NCBI GenBank assembly: GCA_021773355.1
Contig: JAJFKE010000023.1
Coordinates: 186,001-250,000 of the forward strand
Direction: 5' to 3'
From: Gammaproteobacteria bacterium
GTDB lineage: Bacteria > Pseudomonadota > Gammaproteobacteria > Pseudomonadales > Pseudohongiellaceae
Length of the DNA stretch: 64,000 nt
Made by a program: the position numbers and the translations under genes. Below, in pieces: positions 24,102-49,758 of this stretch (its first letter is position 1; the number at the start of each line of letters is the position of its first letter). Under the pieces are notes generated by a model. The model ran no database searches and was not told the origin of the DNA. It saw only the letters and a program-made list of their open reading frames with translations.

Positions 24102-24536
24102 ATGTACAATAAAGTCATTGTCGCGGTCGACCTGTCGGAAGAATCGCAGAAGGTAGTGGATGCCGCGTTAAACCTGGTCAATAAAGATCGAAGCAAATTA
24201 GTACTGGTTCACGCAGTAGAGCCAATCCCACTTACTTGGGGTATGGAGAGCTATGCCATGGACCCGATTGAACTGCAGCAGAAAATTGTCGATCATGCCG
24301 GCAGCTTGTTAGAAGAAATTGGCGCAAAGGCTGGTATCGATAAGTCCAACCAGCACACCAAGCTGGGGGTTCCAGCCGCCGAAATACGCAATATTTCTCG
24401 TGAGTTGGGCGCCGATGCAATCGTAATCGGAGGCCATGGTCATTCGGGATGGAAGGTCATGCTTGGCGCAACCGCGAATAAGCTTCTGCATGGCGCAACT
24501 TGCGATGTATTAACCGTTTATGTTGGTGATGACTGA
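24102..24536 (+). CDS. Universal stress protein, UspA family
   Basis: MYNKVIVAVDLSEESQKVVDAAL...VIGGHGHSGWKVMLGATANKLL. Confidence 0.95.
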   Translation: MYNKVIVAVDLSEESQKVVDAALNLVNKDRSKLVLVHAVEPIPLTWGMESYAMDPIELQQKIVDHAGSLLEEIGAKAGIDKSNQHTKLGVPAAEIRNISRELGADAIVIGGHGHSGWKVMLGATANKLLHGATCDVLTVYVGDD

Positions 24537-24988
24537 GCGGGCAACGCTATAAGTAGATGATGCAAAACCATTCCTATTACCATTGCAACAACGAACATCA
24601 GTGCCGAGCTGTTGAGTGTCGCCATCGCTGACAACGCCGGCCCAGGACAAAAGCCGGCAATACCCCAGCCAATTCCGAATAGAATTGCGCCTCCTACAAG
24701 TTTCGCGTCCAGATCTTTACTTGTTGGCAAATAAAATTTTGTGCCAAACAAAGGCTCTTTCCGTTTCATGATGAAATGAAAGCCGGGAACAGTCATCATG
24801 AGACCAGCCCCCATAACCAGTAATAGCGTCGGATCCCAATTTCCGAATAGATCGAGAAACCCTATCACCTTTGCCGGATTTATCATTCCAGAAATCGTTA
24901 GGCCCAGCCTGAATAACAGGCCAGACAAAAATACCGTAAGCAGCGAATAGCTCCAACGATGAATATCAATGAAAATGAAAAGCCACAA
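24518..24988 (-). CDS. YeeE/YedE-family transporter half (DUF6691-like)
   Basis: LSGLLFRLGLTISGMINPAKVIGFLDLFGNWDPTL and GIGWGIAGFCPGPAL; 3' end overlaps the convergent usp gene by 19 nt. Confidence 0.85.
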   Translation of the reverse strand: MWLFIFIDIHRWSYSLLTVFLSGLLFRLGLTISGMINPAKVIGFLDLFGNWDPTLLLVMGAGLMMTVPGFHFIMKRKEPLFGTKFYLPTSKDLDAKLVGGAILFGIGWGIAGFCPGPALSAMATLNSSALMFVVAMVIGMVLHHLLIALPAQSSPT

Positions 24989-25006
24989 TGATACTCTGCT
25001 GCAAAT

Positions 25007-26725: not shown

Positions 26726-26749
26726 TAGAGTAGTCCTTTCCTAACTTCG

Positions 26750-28429
26750 TTATTGAATTTTAGCAGCGGAGACTGAGGGTTTTACCAACCACTCACGCCC
26801 TTTCAACATGCCGTTCCAATACACAAACGGCAGTATGTCTTTTTTCAAGCTCCAGGCTGCCCGCGATGGCTTGGTACCGTCAATCAACCAGGAAGGAAAA
26901 CTGGGCAGCAATTTTCCGCCATAACCGAATTCGGCGAGTACAATTTTCCCTTTGGCCACGGTCAGCGGGCAAGAGCCGTAACCATTATAGCGAGCTGTTC
27001 CTTGGGTGATATTACAATCAGCAAGTACATTGTGGGCCACCACCGGCGCTTGCATTCTCGCCGCCGCCGCCGTTTTCGCATTAGGCGCATTCATTACATC
27101 CCCCAAGGCCCAAATATTACCGAATACTTTGTGGGCGAGGGTTTCCGGGTCTACGTCGACCCAGCCTGCCCCATCCACCAGTGGGCTATTTCGAATAAAG
27201 TCTGGCGCCTGCTGCGGCGGACAGACGTGAATCATATCGAAGCCAGTCTTCACTGTTTCTTTGTTTCCCTCACTATCCGTCTTATCGAACCACGCGGTTT
27301 TTGTTGCCACATCGACTTTGGTCAAGTTATGAGAAAAGTTCAATTCGACTTGGTATCGCTGTATATAATTCATCAAAGCAGGGACATAGGCCTCGACACC
27401 AAACAGTACTGGGCCGGCGTTGAAAAACTTCACATTAATCTTTTCAAGAAGTCCTTTTCGGTGCCAATAGTCTGCTGAGAGATACATTGCCTTCTGCGGG
27501 GCACCTGCACATTTGATGGGCATCGGTGGCTGAGTGAAGATTGCATTTCCCCCGCGCAACTCTTGAACAAGCTTCCAAGTATAAGGCGCCAGGTCATAGC
27601 TGTAGTTAGAGGTAACACCGTGATGACCCAGACTGTCAGTTAGGCCTTCGACACCATCCCAATTCAGTTTCAGACCCGCCGCCACCACCAGTCTGTCATA
27701 GGAAACAGCGCGCCCGTCATCGAGTCGAAGCAGATTGTTGGCGGGGTCAAAAGAAACAACGGAGGCCTTTAGCCATTTCGCAGTTCTCGGCATCAGAGAG
27801 GCCATTGTGCGCTCAGTTTGTTGCGGCTTAAAAACCCCAGCCCCAACCAGCGTCCAGCCCGGCTGATAATAGTGTTTTTCCGCCGGCTCAATGATTGCCA
27901 TCTGTGCCTGGGGCGCACGTTTCAAAATACTGGATGCTACCGACAGGCCACCGGCTCCGGCCCCAATAATCAGGATGTTATAATGCGCCGCTGCCGGGCC
28001 CCGCTCTAGACTGCTCTTACCAAGCCGAGCCTGAATACTCTTAAGATCGTATCCCAAGCCTTGAGCAGTGGCGCTGACTTCCGCCGGTTTCATGCCTTGA
28101 GTAACCGCAGACAGCGCCCACAGCTCAGTACAGCGCGTACCAGTGCGGCAATATGCCAGTATGGGCTTTGGTAATTCCTTTACAGACTCGGTAAAAGCAG
28201 TTACCTTTGCCTCGGTAATTTTTCCCGAGACCACGGGAAGGTACAGCATAGCGAGCCCCTGTTTTTCCGCGTCTTGACTGATTTCGGCAAACGATGGCTG
28301 CCCACTCTCCTCCTGGTCCGGCCGATTGCAAATAATCGCCTTGTAACCCTGCCTGGCTATTCTCTCGACGTCATTCGATCCTATTTGCCCGCATACGGAC
28401 AGCTCATCATCAATCTGTTTAAGATCCAT
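26750..28429 (-). CDS. DUF442 (TIGR01244-like) fused to sulfide:quinone oxidoreductase-like FAD protein
   Basis: N-term YCRTGTRCTELWAL phosphatase/rhodanese-like loop; then NILIIGAGAGGLSVASSIL dinucleotide fold. Confidence 0.9.
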   Translation of the reverse strand: MDLKQIDDELSVCGQIGSNDVERIARQGYKAIICNRPDQEESGQPSFAEISQDAEKQGLAMLYLPVVSGKITEAKVTAFTESVKELPKPILAYCRTGTRCTELWALSAVTQGMKPAEVSATAQGLGYDLKSIQARLGKSSLERGPAAAHYNILIIGAGAGGLSVASSILKRAPQAQMAIIEPAEKHYYQPGWTLVGAGVFKPQQTERTMASLMPRTAKWLKASVVSFDPANNLLRLDDGRAVSYDRLVVAAGLKLNWDGVEGLTDSLGHHGVTSNYSYDLAPYTWKLVQELRGGNAIFTQPPMPIKCAGAPQKAMYLSADYWHRKGLLEKINVKFFNAGPVLFGVEAYVPALMNYIQRYQVELNFSHNLTKVDVATKTAWFDKTDSEGNKETVKTGFDMIHVCPPQQAPDFIRNSPLVDGAGWVDVDPETLAHKVFGNIWALGDVMNAPNAKTAAAARMQAPVVAHNVLADCNITQGTARYNGYGSCPLTVAKGKIVLAEFGYGGKLLPSFPSWLIDGTKPSRAAWSLKKDILPFVYWNGMLKGREWLVKPSVSAAKIQ

Positions 28430-28442
28430 AGCTCGCTCCGAT

Positions 28443-29336
28443 CTACAAAACGTTTATTGGGACTTTTAGAAAAACCTTACCTTTTTCATCAGCAGGAGGC
28501 AGCTGCCCTGCGCGCATATTTACCTGCAGAGAAGGCAGGATTAATCTTGGCATTTCGAGTGTCTTGTCGCGTGTTTCACGCATGCTTACGAACTCATCCT
28601 CTGATGTGCTTTGATTGACGTGAATATTTTCGCGTTTTTCATCTGCAACCGTAGTGAGCCAGACTGGCGCTCTATCATCAGGATAGTCATGGCACATAAA
28701 TAGCCGCATCTCATCCGGCATCGAGAGTAAACGCTCAATCGAATGGTATAAGGTTCGCGCATCCCCGCCCGGAAAATCAGCCCGCGCCGTACCACCGTCT
28801 GGCATAAACAAGGTATCCCCTACAAAAGTAGCATTACCAATCAAATGACTCATACAGGCCGGTGTGTGGCCCGGCGTGTGCAAGGCGACCGCCGTCATGG
28901 CTCCAATCATATAACTCTCGCCATCAGTAAATAGCTGATCGAATTGCGAACCATCACGGCGAAATTCTGAGCCCTCATCAAAGATCTCAGCGAAGGTTTT
29001 CTGCACCACGGTGATTTGGTCACCTACGCCGATTTTTCCACCCAGTTCCTGCTTGATATAGGGTGCCGCGGTCAAGTGATCTGCATGTATATGGGTCTCG
29101 ATGATCCATTCATTGGCCAACTCTTTTTCTCGTACATACTCTACGATCCGATCGGCTCCTGCGCACGATGTGCGCCCGGCGGCATAATCAATGTCCATTA
29201 CCGGGTCAATAATCGCGCAGGCATTTGAGTCTGGATCCTTAACGACGTAGGAGAAGGTGGCCGTTGCTTCGTCAAAGAAATGAACCACTTCTGGCGTTAC
29301 AGACATGTCTACCTTGATCGGTTGTTGATCACCCAT
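28443..29336 (-). CDS. MBL-fold hydrolase, persulfide dioxygenase-like
   Basis: IIETHIHADHLTAAPYI, HTPGHTPACMSHLIG, FVGDTLF, MCHDYP. Confidence 0.88.
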   Translation of the reverse strand: MGDQQPIKVDMSVTPEVVHFFDEATATFSYVVKDPDSNACAIIDPVMDIDYAAGRTSCAGADRIVEYVREKELANEWIIETHIHADHLTAAPYIKQELGGKIGVGDQITVVQKTFAEIFDEGSEFRRDGSQFDQLFTDGESYMIGAMTAVALHTPGHTPACMSHLIGNATFVGDTLFMPDGGTARADFPGGDARTLYHSIERLLSMPDEMRLFMCHDYPDDRAPVWLTTVADEKRENIHVNQSTSEDEFVSMRETRDKTLEMPRLILPSLQVNMRAGQLPPADEKGKVFLKVPINVL

Positions 29337-29874: not shown

Positions 29875-31190
29875 ATGAATTTGATTGCTTCAGACAGTAA
29901 CTCCGCAATGAGCGCCATGCTGGAGGCTTATGACTCCCCTGCTATTCTGGTTTCCTCTAGCTACGAAATACTGGCCAGCAACCAAAACTATAAAGATGCC
30001 TTCGGCGAGATAGATTCCGCTAATTCACACCACTGTTTCGAAATATCACATGGTTACACCGTGCCCTGCGATCAAGCAGGAGAAGACTGTCCGTTAAGTG
30101 CAGCGAAGGCATCCGGCCGCAAAGAGCGAGTGTTACATATTCATCAAACACCACGAGGAAAAGAACACGTGGATGTAGAGATGGTTCCCATCCACAATAG
30201 CGAAGGCGAACTAAGTTACTTCGTGGAATTACTGCGGCCAGTTCCACTGGCGAGCGGCGTAGTCACTGACCAGGAAATGGTTGGCGAAAGCGAAGTATTC
30301 AACAATATGCTTAGCAAAGTCGCCCGCGTTGCTGCTACCGATGCAGCCGTGCTCTTGTTAGGGGAATCTGGAACTGGCAAGGAGATCGCAGCCAAAGCAG
30401 TACACATGGCGAGCAATAGAAAAGAAAAGCCACTAGTAACATTAGAATGTGCAGGATTAACCGAATCTCTATTCGAAAGTGAATTGTTCGGTCATGTAAA
30501 AGGCGCGTTTACCGGCGCTCAATTTAATAAAAAGGGATTGGTGGACTTAGCGAATGGTGGAACACTATTTCTGGATGAGCTAGGTGATATTCCTCATTCA
30601 ATACAGGTCAAGCTGCTCAGGTTATTGGAAACCGGCACATTTCGACCCGTTGGCAGTGCCGAAGTACATAGCTCAGACTTTCGATTGATTTGTGCCACTC
30701 ACATGAATCTTCGCCAAATGGTGGAGTCCGGAGAGTTCCGAAAGGACCTCTACTATCGAATAAATGTCTTCCCTATAAAGCTGCCTTCATTAAGCCAGCG
30801 CAGAAGCGACATACCACTGATCGAAAAAGCCTGCTTGGCAAATTGAATAAAGATCAGAAACATCGCCTCAGCAAACCTGCCATGAAGTTGTTGATGGAGC
30901 AATCCTATCCGGGGAATATTCGTGAATTGCGTAACCTTTTAAGTCGAGAACTGGTATTGGCAGATACTAATATTATCGATCATAATGTAATCGAGTTATG
31001 TCTTGAGGAAGACACCGTCGATGAAACAACACCCGCCATGCATAACAGCGACGCTGATCATTGGGTTAATCTCAAGACGAATGAAAATCAATATATTAAT
31101 AGAGTCATAGATGCGCACGCAGGCGACAAAGAAATATCGGCAGAAGTATTGGGAATCAGCGTACGTTCACTCTATAGAAAGCTAGGCTAA
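29875..31190 (+). pseudogene. FisR-like sigma-54-dependent regulator, interrupted by an apparent frameshift near 30824-30828
   Basis: AAA+ core ([27 protein letters not shown]); 29875-30846 ends early, downstream [38 protein letters not shown]...HTH continues in another frame. Three Cys (C54, C65, C72) in the N-terminal domain. Confidence 0.75.
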
Positions 31191-33217: not shown

Positions 33218-33231
33218 TTGACATATGTCAA
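33218..33231. promoter_or_regulatory. FNR-like dyad TTGAC-ATAT-GTCAA
   Basis: Perfect palindrome, 76 nt upstream of ATG 33308. Confidence 0.55.
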
Positions 33232-33307
33232 CTTGGCTCGTTCAGGAACCAATAACATTTACAGGTATTTGTCACAAGGCAAGAGCAGGTTTGTCGAGGA
33301 TAGCTTG

Positions 33308-33820
33308 ATGCAAGATAATTACTTAAGATCACAAAAAATATTACATTGGCTACTGGCAGTCCTGATCCTGTTCTGGCTTTTTGTAAGTGGAGAATTCGCA
33401 GCCGAAGCCGAAGGCTCAGATAAAACTTTCATTCTTTCCATTCACTCGGGTGGCGCCCTGGTGATACTGGCGTTGATGCTCTTTCGTTACAGTTTACGTA
33501 GACGTCATCCGGTGATAACTGCTGCGTACCTGAAACCATGGGAAGCCACTTGGAGCAGAAGGATTCATCTATCTTTTTACCTGTTGCTATGTTTGATGGT
33601 TGCCAGCGGAATTTTGCAGGCAGTGTTTTTCGATCAGGAGGTACGAGTCGCGGGACTGTTTAATATTAGCCTGAGCCCCAACGAGCCTTTACACGAAATC
33701 TTTCATGAAGCACATGAGTTAATTTCACTCGTATTCAAAGTATTGATAATCTTGCATGTACTGGCTGCCCTCAAACATCAATTTATCGATAAGCAATCCT
33801 TCATAAGGAGAATGTGGTAA
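33308..33820 (+). CDS. Cytochrome b561-like membrane protein
   Basis: YLRSQKILHWLLAVLILFWLF, conserved His; ATG 33308 preferred over TTG 33218. Confidence 0.88.
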   Translation: MQDNYLRSQKILHWLLAVLILFWLFVSGEFAAEAEGSDKTFILSIHSGGALVILALMLFRYSLRRRHPVITAAYLKPWEATWSRRIHLSFYLLLCLMVASGILQAVFFDQEVRVAGLFNISLSPNEPLHEIFHEAHELISLVFKVLIILHVLAALKHQFIDKQSFIRRMW

Positions 33821-35364
33821 TGCCAGTGCGATTCAAGCGCCGAAAATTTATTCAGTTAGTTGGTGCAGGCGCGTTCGGGTCCGCATTTTCGCAGTTCGCT
33901 TTTGGACAAACCCCCTATAATGAGTTGAAAATACCGCCACTGTTAGTGGGCGAGAATACGACGGGTGTTGAAAAATACGCTCTCAAGGTTCAATCCGGCG
34001 AATCAAGGTTTCTGTCAGGTTTGACGACTCCTACGATCGGAGTAAATGGCAACTATCTGGGACCAACAGTGCGCTTTGCCCAAGGCTCTAATGTTGCTGT
34101 AAATATCGATAACTCTCTTGATGAAGTCACAACCCTTCACTGGCATGGCTTGCATGTACCAGCGAACGTAGATGGAGGACCTGCTCAGGAAATTGCAAGT
34201 GGAACCCAAAGACAAGTTGCTTTTAATATAATGCAAAAAGCGGGTACTTTTTGGTATCACTCTCATCGACTGAATAAAACGGGAGAGCAGGTTTACCATG
34301 GTATGGCCGGCATGGTTATCATCGATGATCAGGAATCCAGTGCACTCGAATTACCCGCAACTTACGGGGTCGACGATATACCCCTGATCGTTCAGGATCG
34401 GCGCTTCAATAGCGACGGCACGTTCCGCTACATTTCTATGCACCGTGACGTGATGACCGGTGTGTTTGGCGATACGGTATTGGTGAATGGCACGGTGTCC
34501 CCTATTTTTTCTCCGACAACTACGCTAGTTAGATTTCGTTTATTAAATGCAGCAAATGCGCGGACTTTTAATTTTGCCTTCGATGATCAACGCAGTTTTC
34601 ATGTAATTGCCAGCGACGGTGGTCTTCTGGGACAAGGGGTAAAACTTCGCAACTTGGAGCTTGCGCCATCGGAGAGAGCCGAGATACTAGTCGATTTCAG
34701 TGACGGCGAGCCGGCAAACCTTTTGTCTTTGCCTATCGCCGCTAATTCGCCCTTCGCTCCCCAGGGCATGATGCGCAACATGCATCCTCTGGATACCGAC
34801 GCCATGCAGATTCTTGCCGTGGTACCGCAATCAGATCTTTCGCGGTCGACAGACATACCAGCGGCTCTCAGTGAAATTCATCGCCTGTCGCCCCAGCAAG
34901 CTGATCGTGTGCGCGACTTCGTATTGTCCATGCCAATGGGCATGGGAATGCGGATGCGTGGTAATCAGAGCGCGGGAAGTAGGAACAGCGGCCGCGGGCG
35001 GTCGGGCATGATGGGAAACATGGGATCAGAGTTTTTGATCAATGGTCGCGCCATGGACATGGCGCGCATCGACGAGCGCGTGCCGGTAGGAAGTACAGAA
35101 ATTTGGCGAATCCGCAACGACTCGATGATGACCCATCCTTTTCACTTGCATCATGGACAGTTTCAAATCCTCGATCGCGACGGCATTGCTCCGGCGGCAC
35201 ATGAGTTGGGCTATAAAGACACAGTACGGGTAGCACCTGGGTCCACCGTGCGTTTCATAATGAAATTCGAAAATTTCCCTGATGCCAACACTACCTATAT
35301 GTACCACTGCCACATCCTGGAACACGAAGATAACGGCATGATGGGACAGTTTACAGTTGAGTAG
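33814..35364 (+). CDS. Multicopper oxidase, Tat-like signal, Met-rich segment
   Basis: TLHWHGLHVP, TFWYHSHR, HPFHLHHGQF, YHCHILEHEDNGMM; MPMGMGMRMRG...MMGNMG. Confidence 0.95.
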   Translation: MVMPVRFKRRKFIQLVGAGAFGSAFSQFAFGQTPYNELKIPPLLVGENTTGVEKYALKVQSGESRFLSGLTTPTIGVNGNYLGPTVRFAQGSNVAVNIDNSLDEVTTLHWHGLHVPANVDGGPAQEIASGTQRQVAFNIMQKAGTFWYHSHRLNKTGEQVYHGMAGMVIIDDQESSALELPATYGVDDIPLIVQDRRFNSDGTFRYISMHRDVMTGVFGDTVLVNGTVSPIFSPTTTLVRFRLLNAANARTFNFAFDDQRSFHVIASDGGLLGQGVKLRNLELAPSERAEILVDFSDGEPANLLSLPIAANSPFAPQGMMRNMHPLDTDAMQILAVVPQSDLSRSTDIPAALSEIHRLSPQQADRVRDFVLSMPMGMGMRMRGNQSAGSRNSGRGRSGMMGNMGSEFLINGRAMDMARIDERVPVGSTEIWRIRNDSMMTHPFHLHHGQFQILDRDGIAPAAHELGYKDTVRVAPGSTVRFIMKFENFPDANTTYMYHCHILEHEDNGMMGQFTVE

Positions 35365-35442: not shown

Positions 35443-35742
35443 TCAGGCGCAATACAGCCCGTGCAATACTTCGATGATGGCTTCCGTCTCGCGACTGCTG
35501 AGGGAATAGTAAATGGTCTGCTGGTCGCGCCGGGTTTCCACCAGTTCCAGCTCGCGCAGTTTGGCCAGATGTTGAGACAGGGCCGACTGGCTAAGCTCAA
35601 CCGTCGCCGCCAGTTCACCCACCGACATCTCCCCTTCCTGTAGGTAGCACAGGATGGCCAGGCGCTTAGGGTTGCTCAACAACTTCAGCATATCAGCCGC
35701 CTGCAGTAGAGAATTTAGATCCTTTTTCTTGACCATAATCAA
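35443..35742 (-). CDS. ArsR-family regulator, BigR/SqrR/YgaV-like two-Cys
   Basis: HTH VGELAATVELSQSALSQHLAKLRELELVETRR; Cys32 and Cys98, 66 residues apart. Confidence 0.9.
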   Translation of the reverse strand: MIMVKKKDLNSLLQAADMLKLLSNPKRLAILCYLQEGEMSVGELAATVELSQSALSQHLAKLRELELVETRRDQQTIYYSLSSRETEAIIEVLHGLYCA

Positions 35743-35780
35743 TTTCTCTTGAAGGGCTTGAAATTATAGTTTGACTTTCT

Positions 35781-35820
35781 ATATTAGTAAACACTAATAT
35801 TCATAAAATCTAATTTAGAT
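35781..35820. promoter_or_regulatory. Candidate ArsR operator: ATATTAGT-aaac-ACTAATAT plus ATCTAA-t-TTAGAT
   Basis: Two AT-rich palindromes (35781-35800; 35808-35820) in the 90-nt divergent region between arsR and DUF2892. Confidence 0.6.
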
Positions 35821-35832
35821 GTTGCTAATATA

Positions 35833-36048
35833 ATGGAGTTCGTGATGAATATTGATCGATTCGTGTTTGCCTTCGCCGGCACTGTGATTCTACTGAGCTT
35901 GGCTCTGGGACTGTTAGTGAGCCAGTGGTGGTTCCTGCTGACAGGTTTCGTCGGCCTCAACATGTTGCAGGCCGCCTTCACCAGAGTTTGCCCGTTGGCG
36001 ATAATTCTGAGCAAGTCTGGCGTCAAGCCAGGCCAGGCTTTTAGCTAA
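35833..36048 (+). CDS. DUF2892 (YgaP-like transmembrane) protein
   Basis: MNIDRFVFAFAGTVILLSLALGL...GLNMLQAAFTRVCPLAIIL. Confidence 0.85.
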   Translation: MEFVMNIDRFVFAFAGTVILLSLALGLLVSQWWFLLTGFVGLNMLQAAFTRVCPLAIILSKSGVKPGQAFS

Positions 36049-36095
36049 ACCTGTAACCAGTTTTCTACCTAAATACAGCTTAAGCGGAGTAAGCC

Positions 36096-38735
36096 ATGCT
36101 TCATCTGTCAGAACGTGCGGCGGACAAACCTAAGGCCTTCATGTGGGGGGCCTCCTTACTGAGTCTGCTGGTGATCGCTCTGGTTGTTATACCGGTGCTG
36201 CGCCCGCAGGCACTGCCTTTCCTGCAGCCTTTGCAGATCGACACCGATCCGGAGAATATGCTGGATACCGAAGAGCCGGTGCGGAAGCTGCACAATGCCA
36301 TGCGAGAGGAGTTCACCCTCAACGACATCGTTGTGGTGGGGGTGGTCAACAACGAGCATCCCCAGGGTGTTTTCAACGTGCAGTCCCTCAACAACATTTA
36401 TGAACTGACCACCTTCGCGCAGTCACTGCAGTGGGAGGAAGACGGAGAAAACGTCGGTGTGGTTGCGATAGACATGATCGCTCCCTCGACGGTCGACAGC
36501 ATTCAGCAGGCCGGCCTCGGCACGGTGCGCTTCGAATGGCTGATGGCATCACCGCCTACCACCGAGACAGAAGCACTGGCCATTGCCGAACAGGCACAGC
36601 GCCTGCCCTTCCTGGAAGGCACATTGATTTCCGAAGATCGCCGCGCCGTGGCGTTATACATCCCCATCACCTCCAAGAATGTCAGCTACCAGGTAGCCAC
36701 CGAGTTGAAGCGGAAGGTGGCGGAATTTTCCGGCGACGACCAATTCCATATCACCGGCCTGCCAGTAGCCCAGGACCAGTTCGGAGTGGAGATGTTCGTG
36801 CAGATGGCAATTTCGGCGCCACTGGCCATGCTGCTGATCCTGGCATTAATGTGGCTGTTCTTCCGCCATCTGAACCTGGTGATCTCGCCGATGGTGGTGG
36901 CGCTTTTCTCGGTGACCCTTACCATGGGACTGTTGATCATCACCGGTAACACCGTGCACATCATGAGTTCGATGATTCCCATATTCATCATGCCGATAGC
37001 CGTGCTGGACGCGGTGCACATCCTGTCGGACTTCTTCGACCGCTACCCGGAGACCCGGGACCGCCGCAAAACCATCACCTTGGTCATGGAAGAACTATCG
37101 CGGCCCATGTTGTTTACCACGTTAACGACCAGCGTCGGCTTCGGCTCCCTCGCCCTGACCCCGATTCCACCGGTGCAGGTGTTCGGCCTGTTCGTCGGCC
37201 TCGGCGTGATACTGGCCTGGCTGCTCACCATTACCCTGATTCCAGCCTACATCATGCTGATGTCGGAGGAATCCCTGCAGGGCTTCGGCCTGGCCAGCAG
37301 CGAAGCCGGCATCAAGTCCCATCCGTCATTGCTGACTCGACTGTTGCATGGAGTCGGTCAATTCACCGCGAACCAGGGCAAGCTGATTCTGTCGGTAACC
37401 CTGCTGCTGGGGCTGGGTGCCTGGTACGGCATTACCAAAATCCAGATTAACGACAACCCGGTGAAATGGTTTAACGAGAATCATGAGATACGGGTGGCCG
37501 ACCGCGCCCTCAACGAACGCTTCGCCGGCACCTATATGGCCTACCTGGCGCTACAGCCGGAGTCTGCTGAGTTCAACCTTGCTGACTATGTGGCGGATCT
37601 ACAGACTCGCGTTGACGCACTGTCACCTGGGGTCGCCAGTCAAATCAGTGCTTTGCTTACTGACGCGTCCGCGACGCCAAACGACAAGGCGAACCTGATC
37701 GAAGCTCTGCGAGAAGCTGCCTTCGAGCGTCAGGATGCTACCGAGACAGACGCTGATTGGGACGCCTGGGACGAGGCAATCCTGATGTTGGACAACGAAC
37801 TACTCGCCGGCGAGGTGTTCAAGCGCCCGGACGTACTGCATTACATCGAACGCCTGCAGCAGCACCTGCTGGATACGGCACTGGTGGGCAAGAGTAACGC
37901 GCTGCCGGATATCATCAAGACCGTACACCGGGAACTGTTGCTGGGCGAGGCGGAAGAATTTCGTATTCCCGACAGTCAGGCCGCCGTGGCCCAGACCCTA
38001 ATCACCTACGAGAGTAGCCATCGGCCCCAGGATCTGTGGCACTTCGTGACACCGGACTACCGCAAAACCAATCTTTGGATACAACTGAAGAGTGGCGACA
38101 ACATCGACATGAACGCGCTGGTGGATTCGGTGAATAACTGGCTAGCCGACAATCCGGCACCGGTGGAACTGCGCCATGACTGGTTCGGCCTCACCTACAT
38201 TAACGTAATCTGGCAGCAGAAAATGGTGTCCGGCATGCTCAATGCATTCCTCGGCAGCTTCGTCATCGTGTTGGCGCTGATGTCCCTGTTGTTCCGATCC
38301 TTCTGGTGGGGCCTGCTCAGCATGATCCCGCTCACCATGACCATAGCCGTAACCTACGGCATTATTGGACTGATAGGTAAAGATTACGATATGCCGGTGG
38401 CGGTGTTGTCATCACTGAGCCTCGGCCTGGCGGTTGACTATGCCATTCACTTTCTGGCCCGCGCGCGCGAGTTGCGCGGTCGCTATGCCAGCTGGCAGGA
38501 AACCCTCTGTGCCGTATTCGAGGAACCAGCCCGCGCCATCACGCGCAACATCGTGGTGATCGGCTGCGGCTTCTTACCATTGTTGGCGGCACCACTGGTA
38601 CCTTATAAAACGGTTGGCATGTTCATCTCCACCATACTGTTACTGGCTGGCGCAGCAACCCTGCTGATCCTGCCAGCCCTGATGACCCTGTTTCAACACC
38701 GGCTGTTCCCCGAGCCTGAGGAGGTAAAAGCATGA
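36096..38735 (+). CDS. RND-superfamily (MMPL-like) exporter
   Basis: 879 aa; two repeated TM bundles (IMPIAVLDAVHILSDFFDRY; LSLGLAVDYAIHFLARARE). Confidence 0.92.
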   Translation: MLHLSERAADKPKAFMWGASLLSLLVIALVVIPVLRPQALPFLQPLQIDTDPENMLDTEEPVRKLHNAMREEFTLNDIVVVGVVNNEHPQGVFNVQSLNNIYELTTFAQSLQWEEDGENVGVVAIDMIAPSTVDSIQQAGLGTVRFEWLMASPPTTETEALAIAEQAQRLPFLEGTLISEDRRAVALYIPITSKNVSYQVATELKRKVAEFSGDDQFHITGLPVAQDQFGVEMFVQMAISAPLAMLLILALMWLFFRHLNLVISPMVVALFSVTLTMGLLIITGNTVHIMSSMIPIFIMPIAVLDAVHILSDFFDRYPETRDRRKTITLVMEELSRPMLFTTLTTSVGFGSLALTPIPPVQVFGLFVGLGVILAWLLTITLIPAYIMLMSEESLQGFGLASSEAGIKSHPSLLTRLLHGVGQFTANQGKLILSVTLLLGLGAWYGITKIQINDNPVKWFNENHEIRVADRALNERFAGTYMAYLALQPESAEFNLADYVADLQTRVDALSPGVASQISALLTDASATPNDKANLIEALREAAFERQDATETDADWDAWDEAILMLDNELLAGEVFKRPDVLHYIERLQQHLLDTALVGKSNALPDIIKTVHRELLLGEAEEFRIPDSQAAVAQTLITYESSHRPQDLWHFVTPDYRKTNLWIQLKSGDNIDMNALVDSVNNWLADNPAPVELRHDWFGLTYINVIWQQKMVSGMLNAFLGSFVIVLALMSLLFRSFWWGLLSMIPLTMTIAVTYGIIGLIGKDYDMPVAVLSSLSLGLAVDYAIHFLARARELRGRYASWQETLCAVFEEPARAITRNIVVIGCGFLPLLAAPLVPYKTVGMFISTILLLAGAATLLILPALMTLFQHRLFPEPEEVKA

Positions 38736-39514
38736 AGAAATTGCTGTTAGTAATCGCAGGTCTGGTGTCGTTGCAAACCGCCGCAGCCATCGAGGTAGAC
38801 GAGGTTGTGGCGAAGGCGAACCACGCCGCCTATTACCAGGGCAAGGATGGCAAGGCCCGGGTGCAGATGACCATCGTCGACGCCCAGGGTCGTGAACGCA
38901 GCCGCAACTTCACCATACTGCGGCTGGACGTCCAGGACGAGGTAGACGGCGCGCAGAAGATGTATGTCTATTTCAACCGCCCCGCCGACGTCAACAAGAC
39001 CGCGTTCATGGTGTGGAAGAAGTTGGAAGGTGACGACGACCGCTGGCTGTACCTGCCGGCACTGGATTTGGTGAAGCGTATCGCCTCCAGTGACGAGCGT
39101 ACCAGTTTCGTCGGCTCCCACTTCTTCTACGAAGACGTCTCCGGCCGGGTGCCCACCGAGGACAGGCACGTGCTGGTGGAAGAAACCGACAATTACTACG
39201 TCGTGGAGAGTACGCCCCTGAACGCCGATCAGGTTGAATTCGCCACCTACAAGAACTGGATTCACAAGCAGACGTTTCTGCCGGTGCGCACCGAGTTCTA
39301 CAACGACAACGGCCAGGCCTACCGAACCTACGAGGCACTCAAGGTGGAGGATATTGGCGGCTACCAGACCGTCACCGAGTCCCGCATGAGCGATAGCCGC
39401 ATCGGTGGACACACGACCATGGGCTACAGCGATGTGCAGTACGACATGGATCTGGCGGAAGACCTGTTCACCGAGCGCTACCTGCGCAACCCGCCACGGC
39501 GTTACCTGCGGTAA
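38732..39514 (+). CDS. Outer membrane lipoprotein-sorting (LolA-like) protein
   Basis: Signal peptide; 4-nt overlap with RND gene; DDRWLYLPALDLVKRIASSDERTSFVGSHFFYEDVSGR. Confidence 0.9.
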   Translation: MKKLLLVIAGLVSLQTAAAIEVDEVVAKANHAAYYQGKDGKARVQMTIVDAQGRERSRNFTILRLDVQDEVDGAQKMYVYFNRPADVNKTAFMVWKKLEGDDDRWLYLPALDLVKRIASSDERTSFVGSHFFYEDVSGRVPTEDRHVLVEETDNYYVVESTPLNADQVEFATYKNWIHKQTFLPVRTEFYNDNGQAYRTYEALKVEDIGGYQTVTESRMSDSRIGGHTTMGYSDVQYDMDLAEDLFTERYLRNPPRRYLR

Positions 39515-39549
39515 ACAGACAAGCAGTAAGTGAAGGGGCAAGAAAAGTA

Positions 39550-41013
39550 GTGAGAGAAGCAATGGGAGTCACGCGCGCTGCAATCCTGAGCAGTCTACTG
39601 GGCCTGCTGTTGAGCACTATGGCGCTAGCTCAGGACCCGCCGTTGCCGGCCGGGCTGGTAGCACCGGTGTCGAGCACAGCTGAAGAACCACAGTTACCTG
39701 CCGGCTTGTCTTCGGAACCAACCTTGCCATCCGGACTCGGTACAGTCAGTTCGATCTCATCACGATCTCCGGCTCGGGATGATGCGGCAGCTACATTTTT
39801 AGATTCGCTACCTTTCGATCTAACAGGTTTTATCGAGTCGCGCCTTGGCACCCGCCTCGATGACGACACGACCCAGAAAGACACGTCCATCGGTGAGGTG
39901 CGCCTGCAACTGCAAATAGAAAGCGACTGGGACTGGGCAAGGCTGGGCATTACCGCCGACCTGCTGTATGACCGCGTACCGGAGGAGCATAATCTGAAAT
40001 TCGACAGCGGCGGCGGCTGGCTCGACCTGCGCCAGGCCGCCCTGTTACTGCGACCGGCCGACAATGCCGACCTTGAAGTGGGCCGACAGATACTGACCTG
40101 GGGCACCGGCGACCTCATCTTCATCAATGACCTGTTCCCCAAGGATTGGAATGCCTTCTTCATAGGGCGCCAGGACGAATACTTAAAGGCTCCATCCGAC
40201 GCTGTCAAACTAGCGCTATTCAATAATGTGGCAAACCTCGACATCATCTATACGCCGCGTTTCAACAGCGATCGTTTCATCGACGGCCGCCGCCTGTCCT
40301 TCTTCAGCCCGATACAGGGCAGGATCGTGGGACGTGATTTTCCGGTCGATGTCGACAGCCGCAACCGCTGGTTGCGCGAAGACGAACTGGCCCTGCGCGC
40401 CTACCGCAATCTCGGCTCCTGGGAAGCCGCCCTGTATGCCTATGGCGGTTACTGGAAAAGCCCGGGTGGACAGGATCCGGTCACCGGTCTCGCTACCTTC
40501 CCAAACCTATACGCATTTGGTGCCAGCCTGCGTGGCCCGGTCGCCTCCGGAATTGCCACGGTGGAGACCGGTTACTATGACAGCCGCGATGACAGCAGCG
40601 GTGATAACCCTTTTATCAACAACTCCGAGTTCCGCTTCCTGGCCAGCTACGAACAGGAGTTGCTACCGCAACTTACCCTTGGCGTGCAGTACTATCTGGA
40701 GTGGTTGCAGGACTACGACAACTATCGCCGCAGTCTGCCACCGGGCTTCGCAGCACGCGACGAGAAACGGCATGTGTTCACTACCCGCCTGACTCGGCTG
40801 GCGATGAACCAGAACCTGACCCTGTCACTGTTTAACTATTACGGTCCATCGGATGAAGACGGCTACCTGCGCGTCAATGCCAACTACAAACTGTCAGACC
40901 AGTGGCAGATTGAAGGCGGCAGCAACCTGTTCTATGGCGACAGGCGGTACACCTTCTTCGGCCAGTTCGAGGACAACAACAATCTCTATGTCGGAATCCG
41001 TTTCGGCTTTTGA
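39550..41013 (+). CDS. DUF1302-like outer-membrane beta-barrel protein
   Basis: Signal peptide; porin-like pattern; LEVGRQILTWGTGDLIFINDLF...DWNAFFIGRQDEYLKAPSDAVKL. Confidence 0.82.
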   Translation: MREAMGVTRAAILSSLLGLLLSTMALAQDPPLPAGLVAPVSSTAEEPQLPAGLSSEPTLPSGLGTVSSISSRSPARDDAAATFLDSLPFDLTGFIESRLGTRLDDDTTQKDTSIGEVRLQLQIESDWDWARLGITADLLYDRVPEEHNLKFDSGGGWLDLRQAALLLRPADNADLEVGRQILTWGTGDLIFINDLFPKDWNAFFIGRQDEYLKAPSDAVKLALFNNVANLDIIYTPRFNSDRFIDGRRLSFFSPIQGRIVGRDFPVDVDSRNRWLREDELALRAYRNLGSWEAALYAYGGYWKSPGGQDPVTGLATFPNLYAFGASLRGPVASGIATVETGYYDSRDDSSGDNPFINNSEFRFLASYEQELLPQLTLGVQYYLEWLQDYDNYRRSLPPGFAARDEKRHVFTTRLTRLAMNQNLTLSLFNYYGPSDEDGYLRVNANYKLSDQWQIEGGSNLFYGDRRYTFFGQFEDNNNLYVGIRFGF

Positions 41014-42029: not shown

Positions 42030-42566
42030 TTAGTTCGATAGTAGATTTCTAACTGTTTGCTCCATACCGGTCAGTCCCCAACGACGACCTTGAGCCAATG
42101 CGTCTTCTATACTGGCACCCTCGGTCTCCCTCGCTGTAACTGCCTTCAAAGCTCCAACCCTATTGCTGGTACCACAATGTACCAAAACTGGCTGGCCATC
42201 CAAACGTGCTAGTAGCTGCTCCAACGTTTCTGCATTTTCCGGTGTTACGCCATCGCGCCCTGAAGTGGGAATCGAATAAAACTCCATCCCTTGGGATTGC
42301 ACAACTTCAGATTCGTTCCAATCAATCTCACCCGGAGTACGAAGGCTAATAACGTGCCTGATACCCGAGTTGGCTAAAATTCCAATTTGCTCTTGAGTCG
42401 GCTGACCACTTGCGAAAACCAAATTTTCCTGCACACTCAGATTGGAAATCTCAGCGCCGGTGATCGCTTCCACATTTACGCGGTAATTCTGGGCACAGGA
42501 AACGATCAACAGGGCAAGAAAAGCAACTATCGATTTATGTATTACATTCCTAAATTTCATATTCAT
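42030..42566 (-). CDS. DUF442 (TIGR01244-like) lipoprotein, copy 1
   Basis: Lipobox LLIVSC; HVISLRTPGEIDWNE; active-site-like VHCGTSNRVGAL. Confidence 0.88.
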   Translation of the reverse strand: MNMKFRNVIHKSIVAFLALLIVSCAQNYRVNVEAITGAEISNLSVQENLVFASGQPTQEQIGILANSGIRHVISLRTPGEIDWNESEVVQSQGMEFYSIPTSGRDGVTPENAETLEQLLARLDGQPVLVHCGTSNRVGALKAVTARETEGASIEDALAQGRRWGLTGMEQTVRNLLSN

Positions 42567-44333: not shown

Positions 44334-45593
44334 TTGAGACAAGGCATTCAAATACTACGACTCATTGCAGTGCTATCCCTGATTGTTTGGCTGCCTTCGC
44401 TGGCTCAGGAAACTCAATTCGGTGAGCACGAGTCAGTGGCGAAGAGTGATGCCATGACTTTTGCTTCGGTATTTGAGGCAGCACTGGCTAATTCGCCCGC
44501 CTTAATCGCCACCGAGAGTCGGCAACAACAGGCACGGAACTATGCAGAGATTGGAAACAGTTGGGTTCCCGGTCGCCAAAGCCTGGAGTTGAACTATATT
44601 GATGATAGTGTGATAGATGATATTGGATTGCGCGAAATCGAATCCGGAATACGCTTCAATTTGTGGCGACTTGGTGAGCGCGAAGAAGCCAAGCGATTAG
44701 GTCAGTCCTATGGGGCACAATTGGATGCCTGGCTGGGCTATCAGCATCTTGTGATAACCGGTCGCGTCCGGTCCGTGTTTGCCAAATTGGCAGAAGCGGA
44801 AACGATACTCGCATTCGAACTACAGGCAACTCAGGATGCCGAACAGTTATTAGAGGTAACCACCCGGTTGTTTGAAAGTGGCGCCGTGGCGCAGCTGGAT
44901 ATGCTTCAGGCTGAATCGTTATTGTTACAGCAGCGTAGACTTGAGCTGAACGCAGAAGCGGGATTGGTTGATGCTGAGCGCGAATATAGCGTATTGACGA
45001 ATTTATCTATGCGACCTGGCGCCCCTTATAGCGAAATACAGTCTACGCAAACAGAGATTCAATTCGACCATCCCGTGCTTCGCTATCTGCAGGCCGAGAT
45101 AGAACTCGCCAGCAGGAATATCGACAAGGTAAGACGAGAGGCGGGTAATCGCCCATCCATGACTGTAGGTGTTCGCCGGGAAAGAGGCGACCGGCTTAAT
45201 CCTTTCACCGATAGCCTTGGAGTCTCGGTGAGCATACCCCTGGGAGGCAAGGCAGCTGTGTCTGCTCGTGTCGGAGATGCCCATCGGGAGAAAGTAGATG
45301 CAGAGATAGGACTGATTGAAAGGCGAATAAGGATGAATACCGAATTGCATGAGGTAGAGCATGAAATATTCTTAGCCGACGGCTCCCTGCGCTTGAGCGA
45401 GTCTGAAACTGAGTTAAACCGACAACGATATGAAATGGCTTTGATTGCCTTCGAAACCGGAGAGACTGATTTGTCACAAACCATCGTCGTATTACAGCAG
45501 GCCCATACGAGTGAAAAAGAAACTGAACGGCTGCAATTGGAGAGATTGCGCCTGATCTCTGAATACAACCAAATAATTGGAATAATCCCATGA
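44334..45593 (+). CDS. TolC-family outer membrane efflux protein
   Basis: Signal peptide; OEP-like repeats; 4-nt overlap with adaptor gene. Confidence 0.88.
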   Translation: MRQGIQILRLIAVLSLIVWLPSLAQETQFGEHESVAKSDAMTFASVFEAALANSPALIATESRQQQARNYAEIGNSWVPGRQSLELNYIDDSVIDDIGLREIESGIRFNLWRLGEREEAKRLGQSYGAQLDAWLGYQHLVITGRVRSVFAKLAEAETILAFELQATQDAEQLLEVTTRLFESGAVAQLDMLQAESLLLQQRRLELNAEAGLVDAEREYSVLTNLSMRPGAPYSEIQSTQTEIQFDHPVLRYLQAEIELASRNIDKVRREAGNRPSMTVGVRRERGDRLNPFTDSLGVSVSIPLGGKAAVSARVGDAHREKVDAEIGLIERRIRMNTELHEVEHEIFLADGSLRLSESETELNRQRYEMALIAFETGETDLSQTIVVLQQAHTSEKETERLQLERLRLISEYNQIIGIIP

Positions 45594-46672
45594 AGGCAAT
45601 AACCCTAATCCTGTTATCGGTGACACTTTGTATTTCTCATGCAGAGGCGCAGGAATTCATACCCCTCAACGATGACGACCTGACTAGACTCGGTATTGTA
45701 GTAGCGCCAGTGGCTGCTTTGGACCGCCATTCTGGTAACGAATTTCCAGCGGCGGTTATTACTTCTCCAGATTTGGTATCCCTGGTTACAGTTCCCTATG
45801 CCGGTGTAGTGGAAAAATGGGCCGTGGTGCCCGGGCAGAAGGTTGCTCGCGGAACGGCCTTGGCCAGCATTCGCTCCCAGGAACTATTAGAGATACAGAA
45901 TCAGTGGTTGAATGCATTGGCTGAGCAACAGCGTTCGGAGTCTGCGTTAACCCGAGACAATCGATTGTTCGCGCAGGGTATTGTCTCTGAACTGCGCCGA
46001 ATGAATACTCTTCTGCAATACGAGCAGATAAAAAACACAGTACATGGGTTGCTGACAAGACTCCAAAATGCCGGATTCGAGCCAGATAATCTGGCGAGCT
46101 TGCTTACCCGCAAGAGTGAATTTGGGCTGTATGTGCTGCGCTCACCCGTGGAGGGAATTCTTACTCGCAGAGCATTTGTGACCGGAGAGTACGCATCTCG
46201 GTTCAGCACACTGGCCTCGCTGCAGGCGCTAGGGCAACCCTGGTTGAGTCTGCGCGTACCGGCGCGGATTGGTTTGACTCTGAACGTCGGTCATAAACTC
46301 ACCATCGGTGGATCTGACGAAACACTGACCGTGCGTCAAAAAGACCTGATAGTTGATGAGACCACACAGACTATTGAAATTCTCGCCGAATTTGATATGT
46401 CCGCTGACTACATGCCAGGACAGGTGTTGACAGTTATCGTTCCGCCATCTAATGGAGGGATCTCCATACCAGCCCAAGCCGTAGTGCATAACGGTAGCGA
46501 TACTGTCGTCTATGTGCAGTCGCGTCAGGGTATGGAAGCCAGAGCCTTGAATCTGCAGCCAGCGGGTAATAAATACGTCGCGCGGTCAGGAATTCAAGCG
46601 GGCGAACTCATCGTGATCCAGGGGGCATCCCTCTTGAAAGGCATGCAACTGGGTCTTGGTAGCGACGAATAA
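45590..46672 (+). CDS. Efflux RND periplasmic adaptor
   Basis: PYAGVVEKWAVVPGQKVARGTALASI lipoyl-like motif; between TolC and RND pump. Confidence 0.9.
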   Translation: MKAITLILLSVTLCISHAEAQEFIPLNDDDLTRLGIVVAPVAALDRHSGNEFPAAVITSPDLVSLVTVPYAGVVEKWAVVPGQKVARGTALASIRSQELLEIQNQWLNALAEQQRSESALTRDNRLFAQGIVSELRRMNTLLQYEQIKNTVHGLLTRLQNAGFEPDNLASLLTRKSEFGLYVLRSPVEGILTRRAFVTGEYASRFSTLASLQALGQPWLSLRVPARIGLTLNVGHKLTIGGSDETLTVRQKDLIVDETTQTIEILAEFDMSADYMPGQVLTVIVPPSNGGISIPAQAVVHNGSDTVVYVQSRQGMEARALNLQPAGNKYVARSGIQAGELIVIQGASLLKGMQLGLGSDE

Positions 46673-49600
46673 TGCTTACTCAATTGGTTCAGTTTGCTCT
46701 CAGCCAACGGTTGATGACGGCACTGCTGGTGCTGTTATTGATAGGTTTCGGTACCCGGGCATTGCTTGACTTGCCTATCGATGCATTTCCGGATATTTCT
46801 CCAACCCAGGTTAAAATTATCATCAAGTCCCCTGGCATGACTCCGGAAGAGGTCGAATCACTGATTACCCAGCCGATCGAAGTTGAATTGCTCGGTATTC
46901 CCCGCAAGACCGTGCTGCGCTCCATCTCAAAGTATGCCCTTAGCTCCATTACTCTGGACTTTGAAGAAGGCACCGATATTTACTGGGCAAGGCAACAAGT
47001 AGCCGAGCGGATAAACAATGTATGGGATGATCTGCCCGGTGATGTAGCCGGTGGTCTGGCGCCGATGAGTACGCCTCTCGGTGATATGTTCATGTTTACT
47101 GTCGAAAGCGATACATTATCTTTACAGGAAAAACGCTTTCTTGTGGATTGGACGCTAAGGCCGGCATTAAGAACCGTGACAGGTGTTGCCGATGTCAACG
47201 CGCTGGGTGGATTCGTAAAGACCTACCAGGTGATGCCACGGACGGCAGCAATGGTGCGACTCGAGATTACCAATCGCAATATCGCCGAAGCCCTGCTGGC
47301 CAATAATAAGAACGATGGTGCGGGGCGCATTAATCAGGGTGAAGAAGCCATGCTTGTGCGAGTGGCCGCCGCTATCGGCGGACTGGAAGATATTGGCAAT
47401 ATTCTGGTGGAGAATTCCTACAGTGAAATGATACCGCTGTCAGAAGTGGCCGACATTTCAATCGGAGCCCTGGAGCGATACGGTTCGGTAACGGCAGACG
47501 GAAAATCTGAAGCTGTGCAGGGTCTGGTAATCAGTCTACGGGGGGCGAACGCGAGAGAAGTAGTAAACGGAGTCAGACTCAAGCTTGAAGAATTAGAACC
47601 GACGCTGCCAGAAGGAACCAGCATCAACGTTTTTTACGATCGAAGTGTGTTAATCGAAGGCGCGGTGAGTACTGTCTCGAAGGCACTGATAGAAGCGGTG
47701 GCATTGGTTATCATTTTGCTAGTCCTGTTTCTAGGCAACTGGCGGGCCGCACTAACAGCTGCTGCGATCCTGCCATTGTCCGCCCTGGTCACCTTCCTGA
47801 TGATGAACAGCATAGGCATGAGCGCCAATCTTATGAGCCTTGGCGGGTTGGTGATTGCCATAGGTATTCTGGTGGATTCCTCCATCGTGATTGTCGAAAA
47901 CATTGTCTCTGCACTGGCATCAGGTCAAGCCAGCACAGGTAGATTGCCGCGATTACACATTATCTTCCGCGCAGTTAAGGACGTAGCCATACCCGTTACT
48001 TCTGGAATTCTCATTATCGTTATCGTGTTTCTTCCCCTATTAACTCTTGAAGGGCTTGAAGGCAAGTTGTTCGGGCCGGTTACCCTGACTATCGTATTTG
48101 CATTGCTGGGCTCTTTGCTTTTGTCGCTAACTGTTATTCCGGTTATTGCGTCCTATCTGCTAAAAACCGCGGCCCATGATGATCCGTGGCTAAGCAGAAA
48201 CTTACTCAGGCTCTATCAGCCATTGCTTGCAACAAGCTTGAGGAAACCACAATACGTGCTGGCTCTGGCTGGAATCCTGTTGCTGTTCACAGCGCTGATC
48301 TTTCCCCGTGTAGGCAGAACTTTTATGCCCACTATGGACGAAGGTGACATTATTATTCAGCTGGAGCAGATTCCTTCAATCAATCTCGACACCACGACCC
48401 GCATTGTTCAGCGAGTTGAACGTGCCCTGGTGGACCAAGTGCCGGAGATTACCCGTGTAGTTTCGCGCAGTGGTTCCGATGAGATTGGCATGGATCCCAT
48501 GGGGCTTAATGAAACGGATATGTTCTTGCAGCTAAAGCCCCCCAAGGAATGGCAGGTACGAACCAAGGCAGAGCTGGAAGCTAAGATCCGGGTTGTGATG
48601 GAACAATTTCATGGCATTAACTTCGCTTTTACTCAGCCTATCGATATGCGCATTTCAGAGATGCTCACCGGCTCACGTGGCGACGTAGCTATCAAACTTT
48701 TCGGTGCAGAACTTAACGCATTAAACAGCTATGCCCAAGACATCGCCGAACTGGTGCAGACCATCGACGGCAGCGTCGATACAAATGCCACCATTAACGA
48801 AGGTGCTCAATACTTGCAGGTTTCTGTTAATCGTTACCGTTCTGGTCAGCTAGGGGTGAATGCTGACCAACTTCAGAGCCGATTACGATCGGAAATCGAG
48901 GGTATGCAGGTTGGCACGATACTGGAACGGGGTGCCCGTGTCCCATTGATGCTGCGCTACGCTAAATTAGAGGGTGACGGGCTTGAGCAGATGCGCAACG
49001 ATTTCATTGGGCTCGACGAGGGCGGAGCTATTCCTTTGATCGAAATAGCAGATATTAGTCGGATCGAGGGGCCCGTGAGCATATCTCGGGAATCCGGCCA
49101 GCGATTTGCCGTAATTAGAACCAATGTGGAGGGGCGCGATCTGGTGGGTTTTGTGGAAGAGGCCCAAGCAAAAATCGGTGCGGAGATAACACTGCCGGGG
49201 GGCTATTCCATCGAATGGGGCGGCCAGTTTGAGAACCAACAACGGGCGGCAAAGCGGCTCGCCTTAGTAGTTCCAGTGGCGCTGTTGCTCATTGCTTTTC
49301 TGCTGTTTTTAACCTTCCGTTCCGTTAAGCAGACACTGATAATTCTCTCCAATATCCCCTTTGCACTGACCGGTGGCATTATAGCGCTGTGGATAACGGG
49401 AGAGTTTATTTCGGTCCCGGCTTCAGTAGGCTTTATCGCTCTACTTGGTATTGCGGTGCTGAATGGGGTGGTGCTTATGTCCCATTTCAACTATTTGTTA
49501 GCTAAGGGCCTGGATGTAGCAGATGTAGTTCGTGAGGGCGCGCAGAGGAGATTACGGCCGGTCATGATGACAGCAACGATCTGCGGATTTGGTCTGGTGC

Positions 49601-49758
49601 CCTTATTGCTAGCAAGCGGCCCAGGATCAGAAATTCAAAAGCCATTGGCGATCGTAGTAATTGGCGGCCTGATTAGCTCGACACTGCTAACACTGTTTTT
49701 GCTGCCTATTATTTATTGCCACTTCCATCGACTTAAACCCATAGAGCAAACGGTATGA
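46672..49758 (+). CDS. CusA/CzcA-type heavy-metal RND efflux pump
   Basis: 1028 aa; DLPIDAFPDISPTQVKI; GILVDSSIVIVENIV; GRTFMPTMDEGDIIIQ. Confidence 0.95.
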   Translation: MLTQLVQFALSQRLMTALLVLLLIGFGTRALLDLPIDAFPDISPTQVKIIIKSPGMTPEEVESLITQPIEVELLGIPRKTVLRSISKYALSSITLDFEEGTDIYWARQQVAERINNVWDDLPGDVAGGLAPMSTPLGDMFMFTVESDTLSLQEKRFLVDWTLRPALRTVTGVADVNALGGFVKTYQVMPRTAAMVRLEITNRNIAEALLANNKNDGAGRINQGEEAMLVRVAAAIGGLEDIGNILVENSYSEMIPLSEVADISIGALERYGSVTADGKSEAVQGLVISLRGANAREVVNGVRLKLEELEPTLPEGTSINVFYDRSVLIEGAVSTVSKALIEAVALVIILLVLFLGNWRAALTAAAILPLSALVTFLMMNSIGMSANLMSLGGLVIAIGILVDSSIVIVENIVSALASGQASTGRLPRLHIIFRAVKDVAIPVTSGILIIVIVFLPLLTLEGLEGKLFGPVTLTIVFALLGSLLLSLTVIPVIASYLLKTAAHDDPWLSRNLLRLYQPLLATSLRKPQYVLALAGILLLFTALIFPRVGRTFMPTMDEGDIIIQLEQIPSINLDTTTRIVQRVERALVDQVPEITRVVSRSGSDEIGMDPMGLNETDMFLQLKPPKEWQVRTKAELEAKIRVVMEQFHGINFAFTQPIDMRISEMLTGSRGDVAIKLFGAELNALNSYAQDIAELVQTIDGSVDTNATINEGAQYLQVSVNRYRSGQLGVNADQLQSRLRSEIEGMQVGTILERGARVPLMLRYAKLEGDGLEQMRNDFIGLDEGGAIPLIEIADISRIEGPVSISRESGQRFAVIRTNVEGRDLVGFVEEAQAKIGAEITLPGGYSIEWGGQFENQQRAAKRLALVVPVALLLIAFLLFLTFRSVKQTLIILSNIPFALTGGIIALWITGEFISVPASVGFIALLGIAVLNGVVLMSHFNYLLAKGLDVADVVREGAQRRLRPVMMTATICGFGLVPLLLASGPGSEIQKPLAIVVIGGLISSTLLTLFLLPIIYCHFHRLKPIEQTV

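Follow-up and report, generated by a model that had tools for sequence, protein, structure and literature searches.

A putative reactive-sulfur-responsive envelope export operon in a gammaproteobacterial genome

Results

The 64-kb stretch of DNA that we analyzed (hereafter the window), part of a 5.1-Mb gammaproteobacterial genome, contains a locus that we interpret as a reactive-sulfur-responsive envelope export operon, and we assign this explanation as a whole a probability of about 0.6. An earlier note on this DNA had described five genes between positions 35443 and 41013, and all five are present where it placed them: arsR on the minus strand and, transcribed divergently on the plus strand, genes for a DUF2892 protein, an RND transporter, a LolA-like protein, and a barrel (Table 1). 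The RND and LolA-like genes share a 4-nt overlap.

Table 1. Features of the operon and of the sulfide-oxidation island in the window
Feature	Position	Strand	Basis
SQR-like flavoprotein fused to BLH-phosphatase sulfurtransferase domain	26750..28429	-	PF04273 + PF07992; TIGR01244 above cutoff
Persulfide-dioxygenase-like metallo-beta-lactamase-fold protein (Blh SDO domain)	28443..29336	-	NF040641 positions 137-423, 372 bits
FisR-like sigma54 activator, split over two frames	29875..31190	+	PF00158 + PAS_4 on 29875-30846; AAA lid on 30690-31190
ArsR-family repressor, 97 aa from ATG	35443..35736	-	PF01022 E 1.7e-18
Operator 1 (putative), perfect 20-bp palindrome ATATTAGT-aaac-ACTAATAT, TTAG-N6-CTAA core	35781..35800	.	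intergenic sequence
Operator 2 (putative), TTAGATGTTGCTAA (TTAG-N6-CTAA)	35815..35828	.	intergenic sequence
DUF2892 / YgaP-like transmembrane protein, 67 aa	35845..36048	+	PF11127 E 4e-11
MMPL/HAE3-type RND transporter, 879 aa	36096..38735	+	PF03176 E 4.5e-30; PF12349 sterol-sensing E 2.9e-10
LolA-like periplasmic lipid-carrier-fold protein, 260 aa	38732..39514	+	PF17131 E 4e-56
DUF1302-related predicted outer-membrane beta-barrel, 487 aa, secreted	39550..41013	+	family matches + model

The regulator had been proposed to be a BigR/SqrR-like sensor with a redox pair at Cys32 and Cys98. The pair stands, but that numbering counts from a TTG two codons upstream, and the ATG start gives Cys30 (alpha2, RLAILC) and Cys96 (alpha5, GLYC). 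The spacing of 66 residues, noted as that of BigR and SqrR, holds from either start. The protein has no cysteines besides these two and hence no CXC metal site in alpha3. Both residues line up with cysteines in the structures of HlyU and YgaV, and the two columns are conserved among proteobacterial ArsRs adjoining the RND gene. Such an alpha2/alpha5 pair has been used to describe the persulfide-sensing ArsR cluster (SSN cluster 4: BigR, SqrR, YgaV, and HlyU) (PMC10509353). HlyU was the closest structure in the PDB (93 bits), followed by NolR, YgaV, BigR, and SqrR. Because the score against the NCBIfam BigR equivalog NF040642 was 87 bits, under the cutoff of 155, we filed the protein as an RSS type nearest HlyU and not BigR. 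Therefore, the two-cysteine RSS type was retained from the original assignment while its nearest relative was revised: judged by sequence, this is a predicted RSS-type two-cysteine repressor whose PDB scores place it closer to HlyU than to BigR or SqrR.

Two putative operators occupy the gap between arsR and the DUF2892 gene, the first of which overlaps promoter elements predicted for each direction of transcription. Their TTAG-N6-CTAA core is found only twice in the window, both times in this gap. Since the 20-bp palindrome of operator 1 has a single exact copy in the whole genome, the ArsR protein probably has this operon as its only target. We also considered whether ArsR runs the SQR-PDO island of the window, and rejected this because the island has no TTAG-N6-CTAA site. 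Across 15 divergent loci from the survey described below, the core was present at 15 sites in 8 loci, against a shuffle mean of 0.06, and TTAG/CTAA half-sites at other spacings between 0 and 14 were absent from these loci. The published SqrR site, ATTC-N8-GAAT (PMC9774250), was present at two SqrR-like loci (L036 and L047), with the L047 ArsR being closest to SqrR; as a set, these sites were not significant (2 loci versus a shuffle mean of 0.11 and maximum of 2).

The genes downstream had been described as an envelope trafficking set composed of an MMPL-type RND protein, a LolA-like protein, and a DUF1302-like barrel, and family matches and predicted folds agree with this description. The RND protein matches the MMPL, Patched, and Sterol-sensing families; its 188 bits against TIGR00921 (HAE3 RND) are below the cutoff of 352, with MMPL family and fold still clear. 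Its structural model (pLDDT 87) had its best Foldseek matches to MmpL4/5, NPC1L1, HpnN, and MmpL3, with NPC1 also matched, at TM scores of about 0.6-0.7, and these fold matches are mostly lipid-type transporters. The LolA-like carrier scored 190 bits against PF17131 and 21.9 bits against DUF1329, the latter under the cutoff of 23.1, and its sequence relatives in the PDB (4z48, 9tp6, 3bk5, and 3buu) are annotated as lipoprotein-sorting proteins. The barrel itself had no Pfam match and its profile had no sequence relative in the PDB. Among its homologues, 40 of 50 match DUF1302 weakly (best 3e-7), and its AlphaFold model (pLDDT 85) confidently predicts a porin-like beta-barrel (porin/AlgE/chitoporin-like fold) preceded by a disordered N-terminus. 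Family and predicted fold of the three proteins support the hydrophobic-substrate or lipid trafficking half of the function suggested in the earlier note, and it is likely that the module moves hydrophobic cargo; we assume, on the basis of the RND family, that the direction is export.

The disordered mature N-terminus of the window barrel (39550-39760) contains three LPxGL repeats. Barrels from 39 of 62 loci have between one and six copies in the mature N-terminus (six in L057), and the motif almost never appears later in the protein. These repeats are possibly a docking motif for the carrier or the pump.

The DUF2892 protein had been viewed as YgaP-type, in parallel with ygaV-ygaP. This view holds for the membrane domain (43 bits against PF11127, YgaP-like_TM, with a cutoff of 25) and fails for the catalytic rhodanese domain, which is missing, PF11127 being the sole match. 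Its single conserved cysteine belongs to the family motif (F/L)(S/T)xxCP, which is present in all 46 surveyed relatives.

To establish how often these genes occur together, we scanned species genomes with an RND profile, which returned more than 500 relatives. We surveyed 84 loci: the window locus, three loci of the same order, and the best 80 of these relatives, which come from many phyla and are 51-65% identical over almost their whole length; many of the carriers are uncultured MAGs or metagenome bins. The 84 RND-orthologue loci include a LolA-like gene in 78, a barrel gene in 64, a DUF2892 gene in 49, and an arsR gene in 36. Adjacency was counted in the 70 loci having at least 1.2 kb upstream, with adjoining genes defined as those within 1.5 kb of RND. 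By this measure, ArsR adjoins RND in 28 loci and DUF2892 does so in 34. The ArsR is of the two-cysteine kind in 20 of the 70, two of which (L035 and L044) have three extra residues inserted between the cysteines of the alignment. These counts are inflated by near relatives among the 80 loci chosen for RND similarity, and we therefore also give changes on the RND tree: 9 for a two-cysteine ArsR neighbor and 13 for DUF2892.

As controls, we took 26 loci of the same genus and order that encode other RND proteins. Although a LolA-like gene was present in 17 of the 26, ArsR, DUF2892, and relatives of this barrel were found in none of these loci, which have short flanks. The RND-LolA pairing is thus common and not specific, whereas the combination of ArsR, DUF2892, and barrel is specific to this RND relative to the short-flank controls. 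Hence, the linkage of a two-cysteine ArsR with the RND set, on which the earlier note had staked its proposal, is conserved. A chance pairing of ArsR and pump set was rejected by the linkage survey, the controls and tree, and the operator shuffles. Among 369 genomes sampled evenly from the class, 14 others had an RND orthologue, with a two-cysteine ArsR at 3 and an SQR-like gene at 3; at least two of these loci repeat loci from the first survey.

The sensor subtypes beside the pump differ, being HlyU-like in the window, SqrR-like in L047, and BigR-like in L105. No ArsR adjoins RND in 42 of the 70 loci, and the regulator slot is occupied by a CsoR-like repressor in L031 and L032 and by a Crp-like regulator in L038, L041, and L043. 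Eight adjacent ArsRs, seven from planctomycetes and one from an unclassified bacterium, are without the alpha2 cysteine. RSS control therefore does not extend to every instance of the pump, and we rejected the idea that all regulators beside it are RSS sensors on the basis of the planctomycete ArsRs.

Some of these alternative regulators have cysteine patterns of their own. The CsoR/DUF156-family proteins (L031:13455-13718 and L032:11844-12107) have a C-x23-C arrangement whose second cysteine is presumably offset from the CsoR/CstR position, and could possibly be unusual thiol sensors. The Crp-like regulators share a conserved ESCxMTTTCLIS and replace ArsR upstream of DUF2892 (L038:7951-8601, L041:8834-9484, and L043:9012-9671). 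Planctomycete ArsRs at L081, L083, L094, L095, L107, and L109 lack the alpha2 cysteine, and their C-terminal helix bears a C-x4-C pair; at the same loci, DUF2892 is located between RND and LolA.

Genes of sulfur metabolism recur around the pump. SQR-like flavoproteins, meaning those whose best NCBIfam match was type III sulfide:quinone reductase with scores below cutoff, occur within 5 kb of RND in 10 loci, a minority, and a CoA-disulfide reductase-rhodanese (CoADR-rhodanese) does so in five. Genes of OsmC, DUF302, and thioredoxin type are also recurrent near RND. DUF2892 and the SQR-like or CoADR-rhodanese genes recur beside the pump whatever the type of regulator. In the window, a sulfide-oxidation island separate from the operon is found 6-13 kb upstream of it. 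The regulatory half of the function suggested in the earlier note, control by sulfane sulfur, thus draws support from the two-cysteine ArsR, the recurrent operator motif, the occurrence of distinct sensor subtypes on separate branches, and the sulfide-oxidation neighbors. Considering the cysteines, operators, recruited RSS-sensor subtypes, and neighbors, we believe sulfane-sulfur regulation of this operon to be very likely.

The minus-strand part of the island (24518-29336) encodes a DUF6691 protein, a SulP permease, the SQR-BLH fusion, and the PDO-like protein. The FisR-like activator is divided between overlapping frames, with PAS and AAA domains in 29875-30846 and the lid and part of an HTH in 30690-31190, reflecting a frameshift or an assembly error. 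A similar SulP-SQR fusion-PDO set is located 7-11 kb downstream of the RND gene in L043. Elsewhere in the window, genes for cytochrome b561 and for a multicopper oxidase of the CueO-like kind (33218-35364, plus strand) end just past the stop of arsR, and a CusABC-like set is located at 44334-49758. Two lone phosphatase-like proteins (PTP-SAK, Blh-phosphatase-related), closely similar and 20 kb apart, are encoded on the minus strand at 42030-42566 and 63033-63605.

A scan of 36 genomes of the same genus, several of which are incomplete, detected no RND orthologue, and so the operon may have been acquired horizontally. A plasmid search with the RND protein gave a single partial match (Ilyobacter, 46%).

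Discussion

These results can be combined into a mechanism in which reduced ArsR would bind the two operators and repress both its own gene and the divergent operon. Upon build-up of sulfane sulfur (polysulfide or persulfides, for example from SQR), a polysulfide bridge would form between Cys30 and Cys96, and the bridged protein would leave the DNA, allowing the operon to be expressed. A bridge of this kind between the same two cysteines causes related sensors to lose DNA binding (PMC10509353, PMC9774250). The RND pump would then pull a hydrophobic molecule out of the inner membrane, the LolA-like protein would ferry it across the periplasm, and delivery to the outer membrane, or through it, would fall to the barrel. 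The DUF2892 membrane protein would probably handle sulfur at the inner membrane via its conserved cysteine. In this scheme, RSS sensing, the mode of repression, and the direction of transport are inferred, and the cargo most of all. The likeliest cargo would be a hydrophobic compound that arises under sulfane-sulfur stress, either long polysulfanes/S8 or a persulfidated or sulfur-damaged lipid. To name sulfane sulfur or sulfur-damaged lipid is a guess from context that we hold only tentatively.

The same genes might instead form a lipid or hydrophobe homeostasis pump resembling HpnN or MmpL, with a cargo unrelated to sulfur and an RSS sensor for which sulfane sulfur only signals a sediment or low-oxygen niche, in the way that HlyU controls hemolysin. 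The predominance of lipid transporters among the RND fold matches argues for this possibility, as do the occurrence of the same pump with non-RSS regulators (Crp-like, CsoR-like, and planctomycete ArsR) and the precedent of HlyU, an RSS sensor controlling non-sulfur genes (PMC10509353). Against it stands the recurrence of DUF2892 and SQR-like or CoADR-rhodanese genes independent of regulator type, along with that of thioredoxin-, OsmC-, and DUF302-type genes, and we consider such a pump unlikely on balance.

We regard as improbable that the module transports hydrocarbons or terpenoid-type hydrophobes, with sulfur control a side issue, in the manner of Castellaniella AmeABCD or the Thalassolituus MMPL-LolA protein. 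There is no AmeC-like gene, the carrier belongs to PF17131 and not to DUF1329, and no hydrocarbon-degradation genes were among the recurrent neighbors examined. Moreover, although the general parts list is shared (PMC6394551, PMC6304351) and some carriers are marine hydrocarbon-associated genera (e.g., Aestuariicella and Marinobacter), the pump is also carried by Desulfobacterota, methanotroph symbionts, and Phycisphaerae. Sensing of a metal, metalloid, or peroxide would fit the ArsR/SmtB family and the nearby multicopper oxidase and CusABC-like system, but is very improbable for a protein that has no alpha3 CXC, has the alpha2/alpha5 pair defining the persulfide-sensor cluster (PMC10509353), and has RSS sensors as its closest PDB relatives.

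We favor a reactive-sulfur-responsive export operon. A broader form of this reading is speculative and, in our estimation, unlikely to hold in full: the module would be a widespread trans-envelope exporter of hydrophobic sulfane sulfur in the form of long polysulfanes/S8 or of a sulfur-modified lipid, with DUF2892 serving as the loader beside the MmpL-like pump, LolA-like carrier, and outer-membrane barrel, and lineages would have independently recruited RSS sensors for it. To our knowledge, how bacterial cells remove hydrophobic elemental or polysulfane sulfur and what cargo many orphan MMPL-LolA-DUF1302 sets carry are both open questions. By linking one such transporter to a sulfane-sulfur sensor, to a membrane protein of a sulfur family, and to neighbors in sulfide oxidation, the conserved operon provides this orphan class with a testable inducer and a candidate cargo.

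Comparison with known systems

The window ArsR has in common with HlyU, BigR, SqrR, YgaV, SoxR, and sHdrR the alpha2/alpha5 cysteines 66 residues apart, a winged-helix core, AT-rich palindromic operators, and sulfur-metabolism neighbors. It differs from them in its target, which is the RND-LolA-barrel set, and from SqrR in its operator, TTAG-N6-CTAA as opposed to ATTC-N8-GAAT. The likeness to E. coli ygaV-ygaP is that an ArsR sensor adjoins a YgaP-type membrane domain. However, ygaV-ygaP is one operon, whereas the window genes are divergent, the DUF2892 protein has no rhodanese domain, and export genes follow it.

One source mentions two-cysteine sHdrR-like regulators adjoining RND pump genes, with the pumps named in general terms (PMC12423496, Fig. 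S2 and Table S1), an arrangement that the window locus resembles to this extent. The earlier note had considered the function not known to be assigned to these families. This remains so for the full module, of which the open papers searched held no description, but not for the association of ArsR with "RND efflux pumps", which that source already mentions. Apart from this general mention and the Ame and alkane systems, the module appears new among those papers, which is not proof of absence.

HpnN, MmpL3/4/5, and NPC1 share their overall fold with the window RND at 11-16% identity, and HpnN functions with no periplasmic or outer-membrane partners of its own (PMC6394551). A protein of the MMPL-LolA kind is induced by long-chain alkane in Thalassolituus (PMC6304351). 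Castellaniella defragrans AmeABCD combines an HAE3 RND with DUF1329 and DUF1302 proteins (PMC6394551), and hence resembles the window module in having an MMPL-type RND and a carrier of the LolA superfamily. Its DUF1302 protein may likewise have a counterpart in the window barrel, whose homologues match DUF1302 weakly. AmeABCD has an additional periplasmic protein, AmeC, with no counterpart between the window RND and barrel, and is linked to terpene genes, unlike the window module. Its carrier is of the DUF1329 type and it has no DUF2892, whereas the window module has a PF17131 carrier, a DUF2892 protein, and a sulfur-type regulator.
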